From: Alphaproteobacteria bacterium | GTDB taxonomy: Bacteria; Pseudomonadota; Alphaproteobacteria; RF32; CAG-239 | DNA length: 64,000 nucleotides | NCBI GenBank assembly: GCA_017465945.1 | Contig: JAFTVD010000018.1 | Location: 1-64,000, forward strand | Reading direction: 5' to 3' | In this document: positions 1 through 11,648 of the stretch, piece after piece | Layout: each line of letters begins with the position of its first letter | Position numbering within the stretch: the first letter of the stretch is position 1 | Notes under the pieces: generated by a model | The model's database searches: none | What the model was told of the DNA's origin: nothing | The model's input: the letters and a program-made list of their open reading frames with translations, nothing else | Made by a program: the position numbers and the translations under genes

Positions 1-780
1 ATTGATAATAACGGAAATGTTATCGGTAAAAGTGAAAAAGCAGAACGCTTAGCTTATAATGATAAAGGTGAAGTAATAGGAACAATATCGCCAGATGGAA
101 CCGTAAAAGACTTTAGTGGAAAAATCATAGGAAAAGTAGATGCTAATGGCAATATTATTGATAATAACGGAAATGTTATCGGTAAAAGTGAAAAAGCAGA
201 ACGCTTAGCTTATAATGATAAAGGCGAAGTAATAGGAACAATATCGCCAGATGGAACTGTAAAGGACTTTAACGGAAAAACTATAGGAAAAGTAGATGCT
301 AATGGCAATATTGTAGATGATAATGGAAATATAATTGGAAAAAGTGAAAAAGCAGAACGCTTAGCTTATAATGATAAAGGTGAAGTAATAGGAACAATAT
401 CGCCAGATGGAACCGTAAAGGACTTTAACGGAAAAACTATAGGAAAAGTAGATGCAAATGGCAATATTATTGATAATAACGGAAATGTTATCGGTAAAAG
501 TGAAAAAGCAGAACGCTTAGCTTATAATGATAAAGGTGAAGTAATAGGAACAATATCACCAGATGGAACTGTAAGAGACTTTAGCGGAAAAAACATCGGT
601 AAAGTAGATGCTAATGGCAATATTATTGATAATAACGGAAATGTTATCGGTAAAAGTGAAAAAGCAGAACGCTTAGCTTATAATGATAAAGGTGAAGTAA
701 TAGGAACAATATCGCCAGATGGAACCGTAAAGGACTTTAACGGAAAAACTATAGGAAAAGTAGATGCTAATGGCAATATT
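1..780 (+). repeat. Five tandem 156-bp coding repeats
   Basis: Unit boundaries fall at 1, 157, 313, 469 and 625, and the phase continues to 781, where the sequence diverges. Copies differ by only a few bases, mostly synonymous or conservative (for example Asp-Phe-Ser-Gly versus Asp-Phe-Asn-Gly). Each unit is exactly 52 codons, so gain or loss of a unit keeps the frame. The array may continue to the left of the window. Confidence 0.95.
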
Positions 781-3700
781 GTAGACAGTAAGGGAAAGAT
801 TATCGGGGTAGCACAAAAAGGAGAGAAAGTAGCATACGGAAAAGATGGCAAAGTCATGGGAATTATCGATGAAAATGGTGTTGTTCGTAATTTTAATGGC
901 AGAGTTGTAGGTGTTGTTGATAAAGATGGAAACGTAATTCGTAATGATGCAGATACTGCAAAAATTATAGGAAAAGTTGGTTCAAGTAGACGATTAGCAT
1001 ATGATAAAGATGGTAATGTTGTTGGTTACATTGATAAAGATGGAACCGTAAAAGATTTTAAAGGTAATACAATAGGAAAAGTAGATGCAAATGGTAATAT
1101 TATTGATAATAAGGGGAATGTTATCGGTAAAGCAGGGGCTTATTCTAAATTAGCATTAGATGATAAAGGGAATGTTATAGGATATGTTGATGAAAAAGGA
1201 AATGTATACAACCAGAATGGAGAACAAATAGGAATAGCCGATGAAAATGGCAATATTATTGATATAAATAACCAATCTCCTGAAATTGAGAAAAAACGTA
1301 TAGCTACCGGAAAAGATGGTAAATCAATCGGATATATTGATGATGATGGTAATGTAAAAGATTTTAATGGAAATACCATAGGTAAAGTAAATGAAAAAGG
1401 TGAAATAATTAATAACAATGGTCAAAAAATTGGAACAGCAGGAGATTATAAGACAATAGCTTATGATACTAATGGTAATGTACTTGGATACATTGACGAT
1501 AAAAATAGAATAATAGGGCAAGATGGAAAAATAAAAGGGTTTGTTGATGAAAAAGGAAATATTATAGCTACAAATGATAAAACAATAGGTAAAGCTGGGT
1601 TATCTAGAAAGCTAGCGTATGATACTAATGGGAATGCTATTGGTTATATAAATGCAGATGGAAGTGTAAAAGATTTTAAAGGCAATATTATAGGAAAAAT
1701 TGATGCAAGTGGCAATGTTGTAGATGAAAAAGGAAAGGTTATTGGCAAAGCAGGAAAAGTTTTTGATTTAGCTGTTAATGATAAAGGAGAAGTAATAGGC
1801 TATATTGATGAAAATAGATTAGTAAAAAATGACAAAGGTCAGACAATAGGCGTAGTTGATAAAAATGGAAATATTATAGCATCAAGTGGCAAAAGTGTAG
1901 GTAGTGCTGGAGCAACTAGACGCTTGGCTTATGATGAAAAAGGAAATGTAATCGGCTATGTAGATAAAGATGGTACAGTAAAAGATTTTAAAGGTAATCT
2001 CATAGGAAAAATGAGAGATGATGGTAGTATTGTTGATAAAAAAGGAAGAATAATTGGTAAAGCTGGTGCGTATAAAGAAGTTGCTCTTGATGAAAAAGGA
2101 AACGTTATTGGATATAAAAATGAAAATGGACATATAGTAAATGAAAAAGGTGAAATAATAGGTTTTATCGATGAACATGGTAATGTTATAAAAAAAGGTG
2201 ATAAAATTATAGGCAGGACATGTATTAAAAAACGTGTAGTTAGAAATAAAACAGGCGAAATTATAGGTTATTTATCTCACAAAGATATTGTTAAAGATTT
2301 TAGTGATAAAATAATTGGTCATAATAAAAATAATAACATCGTCGATAATAGAGGAAAATTAATAGGCGAATTAAAAGAAGAGCTAAATATCGTTATAGAT
2401 AGTGCTAGCAAAGCTGTTGGTTATGTAGATAATGAAGGTTTTGTTTATGAACATAATAAAAAAATAATAGGTGTTATTGATGATAAAGGTGATGTACATA
2501 AGGCTAAAAAAATCATCATTGGTGAATTGAATAAAGATAAGATATCTGTGATAAATAAAAAAGAAGAAGTTGTTGGTGTTGTAAAAAACAAGAAAGTCTA
2601 TAGCGATAATAAACTGATCGGTTTTGTTAATGAAAAAGATGAAGTATATGGCATTGGTGAGATTATATGCACTTCTTGTAAAACAGCTAGAATAGCACAT
2701 GATGCTAATGGAAAAGTTATTGGCTATGTTGATGATAATGGTCGAGTTGTTAATGCTGAAGGCAAAGTAATAGGGGTAGCTGATAAAGATGGAAATATTA
2801 TTGAAACAACCGGTAAGATTATTGGTTCAATAGGAAATAGTAAGCGTTTAGCTCTTGATAAAGACGGTAATGTTATAGGTATCATTGATGATGACGGAAC
2901 TGTTAAAGATTTTAATGGTAAAGTAATCGGTAAATTAGATGCCAACGGAAATATTGTAGATGAAAAAGGTAATATTATTGGAAGAGCGGGAGAAAAGAGT
3001 AATATTGCTTATGATGAAAAAGGAAATGTTATAGGATATGTAAATGAAAAGGGGCAAGTTATTAATTCTAAAGGTGAAATAGTTGGTGTTGTAGATAAAG
3101 ATGGTAAAGTTATAGAAAGTAATGGAAGTTTAATCGGAAAAGCAGGAGACAGTAAAAATTTAGCCTATGATGAAAAAGGAAACGTTGTAGGATATGTTGA
3201 TAAAAATGGTATTGTAAAGAATTTTGATGGAGAAACAATAGGGTTCGTTGATGAAAAAGGAAATATCTTAAATAATACAGGACAAGCTATTGGTAAAACA
3301 GGTAAAATAGCAAAAGCAGCCTTAGATAAAAATGGTAACACAATAGGATATATAGGCGAAGATGGTAATGTTTATGATTTTAATGGAAATATAATAGGTA
3401 AGGCAAATTCTGATGGAACTATAACAGATAACTATGGAAGAGTGATAGGAAGTGTCGGCAATGATATAAGTCTAGCACTAGATGAAAGTGGAAATGTAAT
3501 AGGGTATGTTGGTGATGATAAAAAAGTTTATAAAGAAAAAGGAAAGTTATTAGGATTTGTTGATGAAAATGGGCAGGTTATAGAATTAACAGATGAAATA
3601 TTAGGAAAAGCAGATGAGAGTAAAAGATTAGCCTTAGATGCTAATGGCAATGTAATAGGGTTTGTTGATGAAGATGGAACAGTAAGAGATTTTAATGGAA

Positions 3701-6168
3701 ACTTGATAGGGTATATGGGAGAAGATGGTACCATAAATGATGTTAATGGTAATTTAATTGGTAAAGTTGGTGAATATTCTAAAGTTGCGCTTGATGAAAA
3801 TGGGCAAATTATAGGCTACGTTGATGAAAAAGGTCAAGTCATTGGCAACAACGGAAAAATTATTGGTATAGTTGGTGAAGACGGCTCTGTTTTAGGGACA
3901 AATGGCGAAATTATAGGCAATATTGTAAAGCAAATTGATGATACTTTAGATATAGTTAATCATAAAGCTATAATAAATAAAGATGGACAGGTCGTTGGTT
4001 ATATAGATGAAAAAGGTATAGCAAAAGATTTTAGCGGTAATGTTATAGGAAAATTACAGGAGGATGGTTCTATTTTGGACGATAACGGCCAAGTTGTTGG
4101 AAAACAAGGAAATAGAATGGATTTCACTGCCGATAAGAAGGGAAATGTTGTAGGTGTTGTTGGAGATTATTCTAATTTAGCAGTTGATGAAAGTGGTAAA
4201 GTTATCGGTTACATAGCAAAAGATGGTAAGGTATACGATTTTAATGGGTATGTGATAGGTTTTGTTAATGAAAATGGTGAAGTGATGAGCTCTAGAGGAG
4301 TTAAAATAGGAGCCGTTATAAAAAAAGACTTTATAGCACTATCCCCTAATGGATATAGTTTAGGTGTTATTAATAACAAAGGAGAGGTTGTTAATTCTCT
4401 ACAAGAAGTTATAGGAAGAGTTTTGCCCAATTCTCTAATTAAAGCAATAGAGGGGGAAAATATTATAGGAAAGGCGGTTATTGGTGGAAAGGCCATCGGT
4501 TGGGGATGTAAACAATATGGATATGTAGATAAAGATGGAAAAGTGAAAAAAGATGGGAAGGATACAGGATATAGAATGCTTTTCGATAGAAGTATTGTCG
4601 ACAACAAAGGCAAATATGTTGGTGATATTGTAAAAATTGGTTGGGTTAGAGATGATAAGTGTAATATTATTGGACAGGCATATTCAGAAGGATTTGTAAA
4701 AAATAATAAGGGTGAATATATAGGATGTGTTAATCCTGATGGAGGAGTTATAAATAATGGAAAACAAATAGGACAAGTTTATCAACCATCTTATGCATTG
4801 TATTATAATGGAGAAATGATGGGGGTTGTTGGATATGATGGAATTGTAAAAAATGATAATAAATCTATAGGATGTGCAAATTTTGATGGTGAAGTTTTAA
4901 ATCGAGACGGATTTATAATAGGACAAGTTATAGATGAAACACAAGCATATACATTAAATGGTGAATTTATTAATAATTTATCTCCGTTTGGATATGATAG
5001 TATGTCAGTAATACCAAACACAAAAATTTTATTAAATAAATATATAGTTAATCCTAAAAAAGAAGTACAAGGCTTAATCTTGTCGGATAAAAATATTATT
5101 GTAGATGCAAAAGGTGATGTTGTTGGACATTTATTTGCAGATGGGTATGTATACAATACAAAAGGTATAGCTATTGATAAATTTATATCTGATGGGGCTT
5201 CATTTTATAATAAGAAAGCAGGAAATATATTACCTAAAGGAAAAGTAGTAGACTTTAATGGAGATATAATAGGCTTAGTAAACGATAATGGAGAAGTTAT
5301 TGATATATTAGGTGAGGTACATGGTAAAATTGATGGCTCCGGACGTATGCTAGATGATAAAGGAGGGTATATAGGAGGTGTAATACCAACAGGGGTTGCT
5401 ATAGGATATGATGGAGCTTACTTAGGATATGTAGCAAAGAGCGGAAAAGTTATAGATGTTGATGGGCAAATAAGTGGAATAGTAAGTTCTGATGGGCATA
5501 TATTAGATTTGAATAAAAAAATAATAGGAGAAGTTGTTAAGGAAGATTTTGTTATTGATGTTTTAGGAAATATACAAGGATATTTAAATGCTCTAGGTGA
5601 TGTTATAGGTCTTGATGATGGCATTTTAACAACCATTTTACCAGGGGGAATTACTAATAATAATTATAGCATTTTAAGAAGAGGAAGTGTGTTTGATTAT
5701 TCTGGAAAAATTATAGGACAAGTATCTGTAAATGGCAGTGTTATATCACCAAATAAAGAAAATATTGGTAAAGTATCAAGCGTTGCTCAAGTTGTAGATA
5801 ATAAAGGCATTCCTATTGGTGAAATTGTAAATAGCGATATAGTTATAAATGAAGAAGATAAGGTTATTGGTTATGTTTTAAAGAATGGTAAAGTTATAGA
5901 TAAAGAAAGAAAAACAATTGGAAAGATTGTTTCATCAAATTTAGTTGTAGATAACAATGGAAAAATTATGGGACAAGCTTATAAAATAGGTGTTAATATA
6001 CTAGATAACGATGGTGTCTTTGTAGGACGTTTATCTGCAAATGGAGAAATTCGAAATCTAACCAATGGTAAAATAGGTTATTTGAAGAGTAATGGGGCAT
6101 ATATAAATCTTAGAAATAAAATTTCAGGATATGCTTTAGATACTGTAGCTCAAAATCGGAGGAACTAA
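1..6168 (+). CDS. Giant tandem-repeat protein, 5' end outside window
   Basis: The frame is open from base 1, so the first ATG (856) is internal and the real start lies upstream; 2,055 residues are visible. The whole protein is a 17-18 residue motif (roughly D-x-x-G-x-V-I-G-x-V-D) grouped into 52-residue superunits of three. The 5' part is five nearly identical units; later units drift, and a few cysteines appear (C-T-S-C near 2670, W-G-C near 4505). The regular Gly/Asp/Ile spacing suggests a beta-solenoid or beta-hairpin stack (inference). No enzyme motif or membrane segment is seen. It ends one base before a VirB10-domain gene built from the same repeat, so the two are probably co-transcribed and work together, perhaps as an envelope or surface part of a type IV secretion system. 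Confidence 0.85.
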   Translation: MDNNGNVIGKSEKAERLAYNDKGEVIGTISPDGTVKDFSGKIIGKVDANGNIIDNNGNVIGKSEKAERLAYNDKGEVIGTISPDGTVKDFNGKTIGKVDANGNIVDDNGNIIGKSEKAERLAYNDKGEVIGTISPDGTVKDFNGKTIGKVDANGNIIDNNGNVIGKSEKAERLAYNDKGEVIGTISPDGTVRDFSGKNIGKVDANGNIIDNNGNVIGKSEKAERLAYNDKGEVIGTISPDGTVKDFNGKTIGKVDANGNIVDSKGKIIGVAQKGEKVAYGKDGKVMGIIDENGVVRNFNGRVVGVVDKDGNVIRNDADTAKIIGKVGSSRRLAYDKDGNVVGYIDKDGTVKDFKGNTIGKVDANGNIIDNKGNVIGKAGAYSKLALDDKGNVIGYVDEKGNVYNQNGEQIGIADENGNIIDINNQSPEIEKKRIATGKDGKSIGYIDDDGNVKDFNGNTIGKVNEKGEIINNNGQKIGTAGDYKTIAYDTNGNVLGYIDDKNRIIGQDGKIKGFVDEKGNIIATNDKTIGKAGLSRKLAYDTNGNAIGYINADGSVKDFKGNIIGKIDASGNVVDEKGKVIGKAGKVFDLAVNDKGEVIGYIDENRLVKNDKGQTIGVVDKNGNIIASSGKSVGSAGATRRLAYDEKGNVIGYVDKDGTVKDFKGNLIGKMRDDGSIVDKKGRIIGKAGAYKEVALDEKGNVIGYKNENGHIVNEKGEIIGFIDEHGNVIKKGDKIIGRTCIKKRVVRNKTGEIIGYLSHKDIVKDFSDKIIGHNKNNNIVDNRGKLIGELKEELNIVIDSASKAVGYVDNEGFVYEHNKKIIGVIDDKGDVHKAKKIIIGELNKDKISVINKKEEVVGVVKNKKVYSDNKLIGFVNEKDEVYGIGEIICTSCKTARIAHDANGKVIGYVDDNGRVVNAEGKVIGVADKDGNIIETTGKIIGSIGNSKRLALDKDGNVIGIIDDDGTVKDFNGKVIGKLDANGNIVDEKGNIIGRAGEKSNIAYDEKGNVIGYVNEKGQVINSKGEIVGVVDKDGKVIESNGSLIGKAGDSKNLAYDEKGNVVGYVDKNGIVKNFDGETIGFVDEKGNILNNTGQAIGKTGKIAKAALDKNGNTIGYIGEDGNVYDFNGNIIGKANSDGTITDNYGRVIGSVGNDISLALDESGNVIGYVGDDKKVYKEKGKLLGFVDENGQVIELTDEILGKADESKRLALDANGNVIGFVDEDGTVRDFNGNLIGYMGEDGTINDVNGNLIGKVGEYSKVALDENGQIIGYVDEKGQVIGNNGKIIGIVGEDGSVLGTNGEIIGNIVKQIDDTLDIVNHKAIINKDGQVVGYIDEKGIAKDFSGNVIGKLQEDGSILDDNGQVVGKQGNRMDFTADKKGNVVGVVGDYSNLAVDESGKVIGYIAKDGKVYDFNGYVIGFVNENGEVMSSRGVKIGAVIKKDFIALSPNGYSLGVINNKGEVVNSLQEVIGRVLPNSLIKAIEGENIIGKAVIGGKAIGWGCKQYGYVDKDGKVKKDGKDTGYRMLFDRSIVDNKGKYVGDIVKIGWVRDDKCNIIGQAYSEGFVKNNKGEYIGCVNPDGGVINNGKQIGQVYQPSYALYYNGEMMGVVGYDGIVKNDNKSIGCANFDGEVLNRDGFIIGQVIDETQAYTLNGEFINNLSPFGYDSMSVIPNTKILLNKYIVNPKKEVQGLILSDKNIIVDAKGDVVGHLFADGYVYNTKGIAIDKFISDGASFYNKKAGNILPKGKVVDFNGDIIGLVNDNGEVIDILGEVHGKIDGSGRMLDDKGGYIGGVIPTGVAIGYDGAYLGYVAKSGKVIDVDGQISGIVSSDGHILDLNKKIIGEVVKEDFVIDVLGNIQGYLNALGDVIGLDDGILTTILPGGITNNNYSILRRGSVFDYSGKIIGQVSVNGSVISPNKENIGKVSSVAQVVDNKGIPIGEIVNSDIVINEEDKVIGYVLKNGKVIDKERKTIGKIVSSNLVVDNNGKIMGQAYKIGVNILDNDGVFVGRLSANGEIRNLTNGKIGYLKSNGAYINLRNKISGYALDTVAQNRRN

Positions 6169-6169
6169 T

Positions 6170-9100
6170 TTGTATATTAATATATTGAAATTAAAAAAAG
6201 TAATTTTAAGTATATCTCTGATTGTTTGTGTAAATTTTAACGTTTATGCAGCTGATATAAGCGCTATAGATTTTAATGGAGATTTATTAGGAAAAGTAAT
6301 TCCTGATGGGGGAGTTATTAATTTTAATAATGAATTAGTTGGGCATATTACAGCAGATGGTTATATCGTTGATGATAATAATATGCTAATCGGTGGAATT
6401 GTTCCTCAAGGAATTGCAATTTCTAATACAAATAAAATTTTAGGAAAAGTCAATAACGACGGAACAGTTACAGAAGAGCTTGATAATTTAGTAGGTAAGG
6501 TTCTACCACAAGGGTTGGTTGTTGACGATAGTTACAATGTATTAGGGGCTGTTATATCATCAGGATTAGTTTATAATGATAAGGGAAAAATAGTTGGACG
6601 CGTATCTGGTAATGGATATTTTTATGATTTAGCCGGTGAAAATAGTGGAGTTGTAACAGCAACAGGTTTTGTATATGGTTTAAATAAAGATAAATATGAG
6701 TTACTTGGTAAACTAATATCATCAAAAGTTGTAAATTCTTTTGATGGTAAAGTATTAGGTAGTATCACTCCTGATGGAAAGGTAACTAATCTTAAAAAAG
6801 AAGTTTTGGGTAATATACATGCTAATGGTTATGTATACAATAAAGATAATACTATTGTTGGGTATATGCCAAGTGGCGGATATGCCTTTGATTATAGCGG
6901 AAAATACTTAGGTGTAATTAGCTATAATGGAGAAGTTTTAAATAATGGAACAACAGTTGCATACACCATTAATAACAATAGGGTTGTTGATAAAGCTGGA
7001 AATATTATAGGTTTTACCTTAAATTTTGCATCAACACTTAATACCATAGATGGAAGATTTTTAGGATACCTTATTCCTGACGGAAAAATAGCAAGAGGAA
7101 AAGAAATTATTGGTAAAATTAATGCAACAGGTGAAGCTATAGATGATAATGGCGTTATTATTGGTTTTATCAATAAAGAAGGTCCTGTGTTTGATTATTT
7201 AGGACGGCTTAAAGGCAACGCATCCATTAGTGGGATTGTTACAACTTTAGATGGAAATGAACAAGGTTATATGTTGAAAGAAAAAGCATTTGATTTTGAT
7301 AGCAAAGAAATAGGTAGACTATTGGCTCCCAAAGTTGTTTTTGATAAAAATAATCAATTTATAGGTATAAATGGTATTAACAACATTATATATCATGGTG
7401 CAAAGGAGTATACAATTTCTCCATATGGTTATTTATTTGATAAAGATAACAAAATAAGTGGAAGCAATATTGCACTATCTGGAATATATACTCCTGAAGG
7501 TAATTTACTATCATATACATCTGTTAATGGAGATAGCGAGGATGTATCTCTTAATGAAATAGCTAAATTAGAGGGGAATGGAGTTTTTATTGATAAAAAT
7601 AATAAAATATTAGGATCAATAAATAATGTAAGTTATGTAACAGATTTCTTAGGAAAAAGCATTGGCAATATAGGGTACACTAATTTAATAACTAATGATA
7701 AAAATGAAAGAATTGCCAAAATACTTCCTAATAGTAGTATAATGGATAATAATGGAACGATATTAACAAATGAATTAGCAGGTAATTTATCTGTAGGTGT
7801 TAGTATAAATGGGGACTATATTGGAACAAATACAATAAATGGAATTGTTGTAAAAGATAAACAGGTTATAGGTAAAATAACATCTAATAGATATATTATT
7901 GATAGTTTTGGAGCGCTTAATGGGGGGGGGATTCCTTATTCCGTAGTTGTGGCCAAAGATTGCAAATTTTTAGGAGTTATTTCTAGTAATGGAGATATAA
8001 GAGCGCCAAATAATTCGTATTTAGGAATGATGTTAACTAATGGTCAAGCTGTAAATGAAGAAGGCGAAGTTATTGGTCAATATATTATACCGAGTGTAGT
8101 AATAGGAGAAAATGGGGATGTTATCGGTTCTCAAACTATATTAGGTAATGTATTAAATTATCAAAATGAAAATTTAGGATGTCAAAGTATAGATGGATTT
8201 GTTCGTAATGCTCAAAATGAAATAATTGGTACAAAAGTTGAATTTTGGCCTGTTATGAATTTTGATAGCAAAAAAATAGGTTATACCGATTTACAAGGAA
8301 AAATTGTTGATGATAGAGGAATTCAAATAGCATCAATGGATTTAAGTGGAAATATATTATCAAAAAATAATGATTATTTAGGGGTTTTATTTAAGTACAC
8401 AGTTGCGTTTGATAGTAATAATGTATATATGGGGCGAGTAGATACGAATGGAAATGTAATTTCCGATAGTGGTAATATAATAGGTTATGTAAAATATGAT
8501 GGTGAAGTTGTTTTTGGTGATAAGGTAGGTGGTTATGCTTTATACGATTTATATGTATATGATAATGATGAAAAAACGATAGGATATATAGCTAAAAATG
8601 GACGAGTATATAGCATATTAGGTGACGCTATTGGTTCAATATATAATGGCTTTGTTTTAGACAAGAAAAAAAATGTTATAGCTAGAGGAAAAAGAGATTA
8701 TTTTATCAGAAATAAAGAGAACAAGAGTATTGGGTACCTAAAATTAGATGGAAATGTTATAAATACAAAAAATGTTAATATAGGTAATTTAAATAACCAA
8801 GGAGATGTTATAAATAAAAATGAGGAACTTGTTGCTAAAGCGCATTATTTACAATATTATTTACCTCCTATGTCTCCAGAAAAAAATGATATTAATGTAG
8901 ATAAAGAAAATATTGGTGGAATACAAGAAGTAATTGATGGTTATATAAGCAATATAAATGAAGCAAAAGACGAAAATCAAAGTACTATAAATAGTGATGA
9001 TATTAAAAAAGATATTAATATTTCTTCTGAAGATACAAATACCATACCTTCTGAAGAAGCAGTTTCTGAAGGTAAAACAGTAGATAATAATAGTAAGCAG

Positions 9101-10591
9101 GGTGAAGGTGCAATAAAAGGTGATACTACATTAGATATTTCGGATAAAAAAGAAAATACTAAACAGATAAAAGAAAGTAAAGAAGCAACGAATACTAAAT
9201 TAAATCATAAAATAATAGGTATAGCAATAACTCCTGGCGGAAAATATATAGGAGATGTATATGATAATCAAAAAGTCATAGGAGAAAGTGGAGAGATTAT
9301 AGGGACACTTGATGAAAATGGTGAAATTATCGATAAAAAAGGAAATACTGTAGGTAGCTTTAAAAAACAGGAAATAGAAAGAAAAAATATTTCAACAAGT
9401 AAAAATTGGTGGCCATTAGCCAGTGGTGCAACAATTTCTCCATACAATAGTAATGACAATATTACAAATGTTGGACCTGGTGGTGGAGTTGGCCCTGGTG
9501 GACGCTATAATCCAAGAAGAGCAGCTATATTATCTCAGTTACATCAAGAAAGAAGACAAAGTTTAAGTGGAGTAGGAATTAAAAGTGGTTATAATGCAGA
9601 ATCATATACTGGATGGCAGGATGATTGGGGAATTGCTAAACAAATATCATCATTAAGAGTTGATATGAGTAATATGATTACAGCTGACAAACCAATCCCA
9701 GCAGTTTTAGCTCGTTCCCTCGTTTCAATTGGTGATACGCCGGTAACTGCTATTGTTGAGCGTAATATTTATGGAGATGCTGGGCGTAATGTTATAATTC
9801 CAGCAGGTAGCAGAATAATTGGTGGATTGCAGTCTGTATCTGAAGGAAGTAGATATGATAGCACAAGCGGTGGTGTAAAGATTGATATTAGTTGGAGTAG
9901 GATTATTAGACCTGATGGAATTTCTTTTATGTTGGGTAGCGCTCAAACAGGTGATGCACAAGGTAGAGGTGGCGGTGCTCTTGGCTATGTTGATGAACAA
10001 CTTGTGAAAAAATACACACTACCAATAGTTGGAACAATGGTTACATCTGCAATTACATATATGATGGCAGCAGATGAAGAGAGTACTGGGGAGATTGAAA
10101 ACTCAAAGCAAGAAGCTGCATCCGATGCTCGTCAACAATTTATGGAAAGAATGGATGAAATTTTACAAGAAATTATAGATAGTAAGAAACAAATAGAACC
10201 TGTAACATATGTTCCTGCAGGAACAAGAGTTATCATCTATCCAATGGTTGATTTATGGTTAAGAACAACAAAAGATATTGATAAAGGAGCAACAAGTGTT
10301 GCTGCTAATGTTGAAAATGTTTTGGTGACATCAGATGGTAGTGGAGATGGGGCTAATGGAGGAGCAACTCAAGGCGGACAAATTGTTACAACAGCAGGTG
10401 GAGGTAATAAAGATAATGAACAGCCACAAAATCAACCTCTCGTAGCCGATAGTGGTAATACAAATAATCAACAACAACGACCTATGAGAGCTCTACCTCC
10501 TCCATCAGCTGATGGCTCTGAAATGACGGTTAGCGAAAATAATGAAAATGAAAGTGATGGTGAAGGAGAAGGTGAAATCGTCTTATTCTAG
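6170..10591 (+). CDS. VirB10/TrbI-domain protein with long repeat region
   Basis: It starts at TTG 6170 behind a good ribosome site (CGGAGGAAC), one base after the previous stop. Residues 1-24 form a signal peptide or anchor (K-L-K-K then a hydrophobic stretch ending V-Y-A). About residues 25-900 repeat the 17-18 residue motif of the upstream gene, followed by a Lys/Glu/Asn-rich linker and one more repeat block near 1013-1060. Residues ~1150-1365 are a VirB10/TrbI domain: I-P-A-x-L-A-R-S-L, V-I-I-P-A-G-S-R-I-I-G, W-S-R-I-I-R-P-D-G, a hydrophobic helix near 1282 in the position of the outer-membrane antenna, and Y-V-P-A-G-T-R-V. Usual VirB10 proteins have about 400 residues; this has 1,473. 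A long repeat part before a VirB10 domain recalls DotG/IcmE of type IVB systems, but these repeats look different. The tail is Gln/Asn/Gly-rich. Confidence 0.9.
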   Translation: MYINILKLKKVILSISLIVCVNFNVYAADISAIDFNGDLLGKVIPDGGVINFNNELVGHITADGYIVDDNNMLIGGIVPQGIAISNTNKILGKVNNDGTVTEELDNLVGKVLPQGLVVDDSYNVLGAVISSGLVYNDKGKIVGRVSGNGYFYDLAGENSGVVTATGFVYGLNKDKYELLGKLISSKVVNSFDGKVLGSITPDGKVTNLKKEVLGNIHANGYVYNKDNTIVGYMPSGGYAFDYSGKYLGVISYNGEVLNNGTTVAYTINNNRVVDKAGNIIGFTLNFASTLNTIDGRFLGYLIPDGKIARGKEIIGKINATGEAIDDNGVIIGFINKEGPVFDYLGRLKGNASISGIVTTLDGNEQGYMLKEKAFDFDSKEIGRLLAPKVVFDKNNQFIGINGINNIIYHGAKEYTISPYGYLFDKDNKISGSNIALSGIYTPEGNLLSYTSVNGDSEDVSLNEIAKLEGNGVFIDKNNKILGSINNVSYVTDFLGKSIGNIGYTNLITNDKNERIAKILPNSSIMDNNGTILTNELAGNLSVGVSINGDYIGTNTINGIVVKDKQVIGKITSNRYIIDSFGALNGGGIPYSVVVAKDCKFLGVISSNGDIRAPNNSYLGMMLTNGQAVNEEGEVIGQYIIPSVVIGENGDVIGSQTILGNVLNYQNENLGCQSIDGFVRNAQNEIIGTKVEFWPVMNFDSKKIGYTDLQGKIVDDRGIQIASMDLSGNILSKNNDYLGVLFKYTVAFDSNNVYMGRVDTNGNVISDSGNIIGYVKYDGEVVFGDKVGGYALYDLYVYDNDEKTIGYIAKNGRVYSILGDAIGSIYNGFVLDKKKNVIARGKRDYFIRNKENKSIGYLKLDGNVINTKNVNIGNLNNQGDVINKNEELVAKAHYLQYYLPPMSPEKNDINVDKENIGGIQEVIDGYISNINEAKDENQSTINSDDIKKDINISSEDTNTIPSEEAVSEGKTVDNNSKQGEGAIKGDTTLDISDKKENTKQIKESKEATNTKLNHKIIGIAITPGGKYIGDVYDNQKVIGESGEIIGTLDENGEIIDKKGNTVGSFKKQEIERKNISTSKNWWPLASGATISPYNSNDNITNVGPGGGVGPGGRYNPRRAAILSQLHQERRQSLSGVGIKSGYNAESYTGWQDDWGIAKQISSLRVDMSNMITADKPIPAVLARSLVSIGDTPVTAIVERNIYGDAGRNVIIPAGSRIIGGLQSVSEGSRYDSTSGGVKIDISWSRIIRPDGISFMLGSAQTGDAQGRGGGALGYVDEQLVKKYTLPIVGTMVTSAITYMMAADEESTGEIENSKQEAASDARQQFMERMDEILQEIIDSKKQIEPVTYVPAGTRVIIYPMVDLWLRTTKDIDKGATSVAANVENVLVTSDGSGDGANGGATQGGQIVTTAGGGNKDNEQPQNQPLVADSGNTNNQQQRPMRALPPPSADGSEMTVSENNENESDGEGEGEIVLF
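7922..7930 (+). repeat. G9 homopolymer inside the VirB10-repeat gene
   Basis: Nine consecutive G encode Gly-Gly-Gly at about residues 585-587, in a gene that is otherwise strongly AT-rich. I noticed no other G or C run of this length in the window. Gain or loss of one base would shift the frame about 565 codons before the VirB10 domain. Such runs act as phase-variation switches in other bacteria; that role here is inferred. Confidence 0.9.
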
Positions 10592-10667: not shown

Positions 10668-11648
10668 ATGGGAAAACTTGAAGATGAAGTTCTATGTTCT
10701 GTTTTAAGGCCTCTTGCGTATTGGTATGAGCAAGAGAATATAGAAGAAGTGGCAATTAATCATCCTGGTGATATTTGGTTGCGATTGCGTGGAAAACGAG
10801 CTTTTCCATGGGTTAACTATAAGGACCCTAAACTCTCAAGAGAATATTTAATTAATCTTTTGCATATAATAGCAAACTTAAATGACCAAGAATTTGATCC
10901 GATAAATGGTTCTCCTGTTGTTTATGCTCGTATTCCAGGCGGGCATCGTTTTACAGGTGTGGCAGGTAAAAATATTGAATACGATTTAGATGATGCAGCA
11001 ACAGGAGGAGTGGCAATAACGATTCGTCTCCATACAGAAGATGTTGCATTTGGTTTTGGTGATTATGGATTAGAGCAAGGAAAAGAATTAAAAGAAATAA
11101 ATCCATTAAAGCACATAAAAGCTCCAGATGATGCATATGAACGTTTATTACTAGCATTAAAACGTGGTGACCATATATTAGTTAGCGGTGGTACAGGTAC
11201 AGGTAAAACAACGCTATTGAACAATTTACTTAAAATTCTTGATATTCATAAACGTGTTATTACTGTTGAAGATACAAGGGAGCTTAATGTACCACAACCT
11301 AATCGTGTTCATATAGTTCTTTCTCGTACTGAACAAACTAATAGTATGGATTATTCAAAAGTTATTGACTTAATTGTTCGTTTTACACCTGATGCGATAA
11401 TCGGAGGAGAGATATCAACAAGTAATGCAGCAGCTCTTTGGGAATTAATGGGATCAGGACATGATAATTGTCTTGCCACAATACACGCAGAAAGCTCAAC
11501 AGCTGCATATGAGGCGTTTGTTAAGAGAATAATGAGAACGTCTCCTCATATCGATGTGGAAAAGACAATCGAAGAAATGAGACGTAAACTTCATGTGGTG
11601 CAAATAGTTAGAGATGGTAATATTCGTGGAATAACCGAAATAACCTAA
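10668..11648 (+). CDS. virB11: VirB11-family secretion ATPase
   Basis: This is a hexameric traffic ATPase expected on the cytoplasmic face of a type IV secretion system. Visible motifs are Walker A G-G-T-G-T-G-K-T-T at residues 174-182, the Asp box V-E-D-T-R-E-L, a Walker B-like I-I-G-G-E-I-S, and the His box C-L-A-T-I-H-A-E-S-S. At 326 residues it is a normal VirB11 size and starts at an ATG after G-A-G-T-G-G. It follows the VirB10-domain gene by 76 bases containing a weak TTGTTG/CAACAA hairpin, so an operon is likely. Related ATPases (DotB, PilT) share these motifs; the VirB10 neighbour favours VirB11. Its stop overlaps the engB stop on the other strand by 4 bases. Confidence 0.9.
   Translation: MGKLEDEVLCSVLRPLAYWYEQENIEEVAINHPGDIWLRLRGKRAFPWVNYKDPKLSREYLINLLHIIANLNDQEFDPINGSPVVYARIPGGHRFTGVAGKNIEYDLDDAATGGVAITIRLHTEDVAFGFGDYGLEQGKELKEINPLKHIKAPDDAYERLLLALKRGDHILVSGGTGTGKTTLLNNLLKILDIHKRVITVEDTRELNVPQPNRVHIVLSRTEQTNSMDYSKVIDLIVRFTPDAIIGGEISTSNAAALWELMGSGHDNCLATIHAESSTAAYEAFVKRIMRTSPHIDVEKTIEEMRRKLHVVQIVRDGNIRGITEIT

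Follow-up and report, generated by a model that had tools for sequence, protein, structure and literature searches.

Two adjacent open reading frames, ORF1 and ORF2, very likely represent a single VirB10 that gene fission has divided into two halves, one for the inner membrane and one for the outer, as judged from sequence comparison across the order, which consists of uncultured gut bacteria. The window analyzed is a stretch of 64,000 bases (bases 1-64000 of contig C9) from a draft genome of 1.55 Mb in 27 contigs. Of all type IV secretion subunits, only VirB10 is described as forming a physical bridge between both membranes, and a naturally two-chain VirB10 would be a notable variant for that reason. 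We found nothing relevant in the open-access literature on a split VirB10, or on such a type IV secretion system in gut Alphaproteobacteria.

Domain Content of the Two Open Reading Frames

The features of the locus are as follows.

1..6168, + strand: ORF1, putative inner-membrane half of the split VirB10 (Bflower_2, E 1e-156); the part in the window holds beta-flower repeats only, the TM helix and ASH domain lying off the contig
1..806, + strand: 156-bp tandem array inside ORF1, 5.2 copies, 92% match (Tandem Repeats Finder)
6158..6162, + strand: GGAGG Shine-Dalgarno of ORF2, in the Arg-Arg codons of the terminal NRRN of ORF1 (from the sequence)
6170..10591, + strand: ORF2, putative outer-membrane half of the split VirB10, 1,473 aa, with a TTG start at 6170, one base after the ORF1 stop codon
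6170..6250, + strand: predicted Sec signal peptide, cleavage VYA|ADIS at residues 27/28 (by eye and pattern)
6251..8839, + strand: about 50 beta-hairpin repeats of 17 aa, residues 28-890 (period 17; AlphaFold2; Bflower_2)
8840..9214, + strand: charged low-confidence linker, residues 891-1015 (pLDDT <50 from model residue 874 on; composition)
9215..9355, + strand: short second repeat block (repeat listing; DUF3659 match at residues 1027-1064, below its cut-off)
9677..10261, + strand: TrbI/VirB10 outer-membrane domain (PF03743; relatives aligned)
10668..11648, + strand: VirB11 ATPase (T2SSE 2e-26; TIGR02788 VirB11 1e-46, below the equivalog cut-off)

A Pfam profile search places PF03743 (TrbI) at residues 1170-1364 of ORF2 with an E of 6e-30, above the curated cut-off. 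The first-pass annotation, which had proposed such a search, was thus right that a VirB10/TrbI domain ends a giant secreted protein. NCBIfam and PDB sequence neighbors of ORF2 are ComB10, VirB10, CagY, and TrwE. Ahead of the TrbI domain, nine stretches of ORF2 match PF21785 (Bflower_2; E 1e-39, 135 bits), and the same repeat runs throughout ORF1 (512 bits), both scores being above the cut-off of 38 bits; the earlier claim that the two proteins share one repeat is therefore borne out. ORF1 is incomplete; the contig starts within the 156-bp tandem array and thereby cuts off the beginning of the gene, and this array probably caused the contig to break there. The draft genome gives no VirB9 match, presumably an assembly gap and the same one that took the ORF1 start.

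Conservation of the Pair in the Order

Of the 153 genomes of the order, 121 contain TrbI, nearly always as one match. The named relatives are metagenome-assembled Alphaproteobacteria, some of them obtained from water buffalo and water deer (colon or rectum). In all 39 readable loci (two sets, 19 + 20), spread over 14 genera, a repeat protein ending in NRR(N/D) directly precedes the TrbI protein. This invariant adjacency and order argue that the pairing is not due to chance, and the search of related genomes suggested in the first-pass annotation thereby sustains its view of a pair conserved inside a type IV secretion locus. Wherever flanks could be read, the pair sits between VirB9 and VirB11, the usual order being VirB8, VirB8, VirB9 with a SPOR domain, repeat partner, TrbI protein, and VirB11; in the window, VirB11 likewise comes next. 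Family names of the neighbors rest on one genome (G031), in which VirB4 lies further upstream, and the other loci were assigned by position and matching ends. A Dot/Icm-type reading of the gene order was dropped, as the neighbors score as VirB8, CagX/VirB9, and VirB4.

The TrbI protein measures 1,381-2,372 aa across the readable loci of the order and differs rather little in length inside the genus (1,381-1,471 aa for the first 19-locus set). Its partner, the ORF1 orthologue, spans 1,051-2,518 aa across loci and 2,094-2,518 aa in the genus of the window. The TrbI halves of loci L153 and L154 (G134 and G139, genus g15), at 2,106 and 2,372 aa, are longer than those in the other loci read. Frames of ∼25,000 aa in G095 and G141 were discarded as artifacts of masked N runs.

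Homology of the Partner to the N-Terminus of VirB10

Complete partners begin with a short cytoplasmic-type tail, one TM helix, and an Ig-like ASH/choice-of-anchor-D domain (assigned below curated cut-offs), followed by the repeats. Giant TrbI proteins also turned up in other alphaproteobacterial families in a class-wide search; in five genomes (G340, G434, G224, G173, and G154), TM helix, ASH domain, beta-flower repeats, and TrbI domain are all encoded by one gene of 1,280-2,838 aa. A profile of the partner TM+ASH region, built from 19 sequences of the order over 237 positions, matches these single-gene giants strongly (G154, 3e-50; G173, 2e-43; G434, 9e-42; G340, 2e-41; G224, 3e-41) and, more weakly, a frame-broken protein in G351 (6e-20), an 843-aa VirB10 (5e-11), and a 524-aa VirB10 (3e-8). 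Against the TrbI proteins of the order itself, the best match has an E of only 0.18. Because the profile finds the N-termini of single-gene VirB10s and not the TrbI proteins of the order, the partner appears to be the missing N-terminal half of VirB10. The first-pass annotation had suggested that the pair of giants could form a fiber; the TM helix and ASH domain carried by complete orthologues of the upstream one argue against its being an extra fiber subunit. For ORF1 of the window, whose TM/ASH part is off the contig, this step rests on the relatives.

Fission is the simpler reading of the direction of change, since VirB10 outside the group of the order is one chain; the choice between fusion and fission rests on these single-gene outgroups, and the trees leave the split group without resolution. 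In a VirB11 tree, the giant-repeat systems form one clade apart from the short VirB10 systems (100/100), and within it the single-gene giants of families f4, f23, and f74 group together (94/92). Pairwise alignment put the junction at no consistent place in the single-gene giants, owing to the repeats, and no additional giant emerged when the phylum was searched for TrbI (E 1e-15, 398 genomes). The frame break in G351, which falls at the junction of two pieces, is a single-genome oddity and was kept out of the main evidence.

The class-wide set held other variants. At L118 (G201, family f51), a 20-bp tandem duplication, either a mutation or an assembly error, breaks the frame of the TrbI protein; this genome may also have a split VirB10, though a broken one, and as another peculiarity of one genome it too was kept out of the main evidence. 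Six loci (L120, L121, L124, L125, L126, and L129) encode short VirB10s of 524-623 aa with lipobox-like signals (LTAC|G, LGAC|G), which from these motifs look like lipoproteins that dispense with the inner-membrane helix. Some of them match the ASH profile weakly.

The Junction and Alternative Readings

Among the 39 relatives, 33 encode the Shine-Dalgarno GGAGG for ORF2 at the very end of the partner gene, typically within AAY CGG AGG AAY. The CGG-AGG codon pair is present at 32 of 39 loci, where 0.4% would be expected from codon use; the loci are related, and a P value from this comparison is not a true probability. In 35 of 39 loci, the earliest start codon of the ORF2 frame lies 1-3 nt beyond the stop. 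In nearly all relatives, a signal peptide, judged by pattern, with small residues at -3/-1 is followed by a conserved (D/E)I(S/T)A motif. Translation of ORF2 would be coupled to termination of ORF1, an arrangement that would keep the two halves near equal in number.

It is most improbable that a frameshift or readthrough joins both frames into one conventional giant VirB10. The ORFs do touch or overlap, and 9 of 39 relatives have both in one frame, yet from locus to locus ORF2 lies in any of the three frames with respect to ORF1 (19, 11, and 9 loci), which indicates that no conserved recoding links them. All three stop codons also occur at the end of ORF1 among relatives, and both the signal peptide and the Shine-Dalgarno are kept at the junction. 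A second reading, that ORF2 alone is the working VirB10, held by its N-terminal hydrophobic stretch as an uncleaved anchor, with ORF1 as a separate accessory repeat protein, we consider unlikely. It draws on the bitopic nature of VirB10 elsewhere and on the single hydrophobic stretch at the N-terminus of ORF2, but that stretch is short, and after it come a small-x-small site and a mature N-terminus that is conserved; moreover, the TM+ASH region that matches VirB10 N-termini is found on the orthologues of ORF1, not on ORF2.

The repeats might instead lie exposed on the cell surface and vary, with a role in adhesion or antigenic change of the kind proposed for Helicobacter pylori CagY. In favor of this are the near identity of the 156-bp DNA repeats and the differing copy number of the partner inside the genus, together with the recombination of CagY repeats during infection of mice (PMC5954226). 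The near constancy of ORF2 length in the genus speaks against it, and so does topology: both repeat regions follow an inner-membrane anchor or a signal peptide and come before the TrbI domain at the outer membrane, a position that is periplasmic in the usual VirB10 arrangement. We therefore regard surface exposure as very unlikely, and the surface fiber envisaged in the first-pass annotation is disfavored on the same grounds.

Sequence and Structure of the Repeats

The repeat unit of ORF2 is 17 aa, of the type LGKVIPDGGVINFNNEL; that of ORF1 is 52 aa, or 3 x 17.3, with glycine spacing peaking at 52 aa (three units). The best AlphaFold2 model of ORF2 residues 28-930, from 13 sequences, has a mean pLDDT of 86.4 and a pTM of 0.85, and the other four models have pLDDT values of 69-74. 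By DSSP, the modeled repeats form a regular, continuous beta-hairpin array, in agreement with their earlier description as solenoid-like. The modeling proposed for both proteins worked for the ORF2 repeats; for the N-terminal 999 aa of the partner it was poor (pLDDT 64, pTM 0.29). Among solved structures, the best Foldseek hits are Rhs/teneurin beta-hairpin shells with a TM-score of only ∼0.1, and VIA-align gives a best Z of 4.4 over ∼50 residues and no global match; this absence does not show a new fold.

The nearest named family is the beta-flower (PF21784, PF21785), which was named in 2023 from predicted structures and described as having a [DNEQ]xxG tip motif and closed 4- to 6-fold flowers (PMC10584680). 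The hairpin repeat and the PF21785 match over cut-off are shared; the described members are closed flowers, and the window proteins are predicted to form a continuous array of dozens of hairpins. The split VirB10 would give this recently named repeat a cellular setting.

Proposed Working of the Two Halves

In the split VirB10 that we favor, ORF1 would be the inner-membrane half, with a cytoplasmic tail, one TM helix, an Ig-like ASH domain, and over 100 periplasmic beta-flower hairpins. ORF2 would be the outer-membrane half, which its signal peptide would direct to Sec and whose ∼50 hairpins and flexible linker would lead to a TrbI domain that builds the outer-membrane pore with VirB9. Cleavage of the signal peptide and the periplasmic placement of the arrays are both predictions. 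In the most likely working, the two hairpin arrays would make contact in the periplasm, either laterally or end on, and rebuild the link between inner and outer membranes that one chain gives elsewhere. We think it probable that the halves bind each other there. The chances are slightly better than even that the membrane bridge is non-covalent order-wide, with signals and force crossing the interface of two beta-hairpin arrays, such that VirB10 need not be one chain. The partner varies strongly in repeat length (1,051-2,518 aa), a pattern that does not point to a measured bridge.

VirB10 of Agrobacterium senses the ATPases, according to a passage in PMC12857230 that cites Cascales and Christie 2004. 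By extension, the inner-membrane half may sense the ATPases and transmit to the outer-membrane half via contacts between the hairpin arrays, a transmission that we infer. A VirD4-like ATPase domain (PF10412) is present in 13 of the 14 genomes of the order that were tested, among them that of the window, and a MobA-type relaxase (PF03432, the sole relaxase family searched) gave no match in all 14. From these two profiles, a protein-exporting system seems more likely than a conjugative one. As the split is kept in 39 loci of 14 genera and unsplit giant relatives exist, the need for one continuous chain is directly testable.

Comparison with Known Systems

ORF2 resembles the VirB10/TrbI family (TrwE of R388, TraF of pKM101, ComB10) in its C-terminal TrbI domain and in its VirB9 and VirB11 neighbors. 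Those proteins are one bitopic chain (TrwE is 395 aa in the PDB), whereas here the anchor and TrbI domain lie on two proteins with long beta-hairpin arrays. The TrbI chain lacks the N-terminal cytoplasmic tail and TM anchor and starts with a signal peptide, and the TM helix is on the upstream partner in relatives; ORF2 alone would therefore be half a VirB10, and the pair together would have that tail and anchor as well as the TrbI domain.

Other enlarged VirB10 proteins are known. CagY is likewise a giant VirB10 with a large repeat region, and its TrbI domain is among the PDB matches (8cb2), but it is one chain where the order has two genes. Its repeats are reported to be alpha-helical modules (PMC2581425), unlike the 17-aa beta hairpins seen here. 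The single-gene giants share the TM helix, ASH domain, beta-flower repeats, TrbI domain, and neighbors of the pair and differ in being one gene; they appear to be its unsplit form. DotG/IcmE of Dot/Icm, one chain, is also an enlarged VirB10 homologue of an expanded system, but the locus here has VirB8, CagX/VirB9, and VirB4 of the VirB type, and DotG is absent among the PDB sequence matches of ORF2.

Several further features recur around the pair. The hydrophobic stretch KKYTLPIVGTMVTSAITYMM of the TrbI protein and the helix-like stretch that follows it are conserved in the genus; they are candidates for the two-helix antenna with which VirB10/TrbI proteins cross the outer membrane. VirB9 at L060:2342-3958 carries a C-terminal SPOR (peptidoglycan-binding) domain (22.6 bits, cut-off 21), and a similar C-terminus, ending in VVRIQ or VVRTQ, recurs in relatives. 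Most loci read have a large gene of ∼1,200-1,550 aa before VirB8 (L056:11694-15539), the one tested giving no Pfam match. Four genes after VirB11 at L060:12943-17879 (727, 230, 435, and 226 aa) have no Pfam match over cut-off, and genes like them also come after VirB11 in G041 and, encoded on the opposite strand, in G053.
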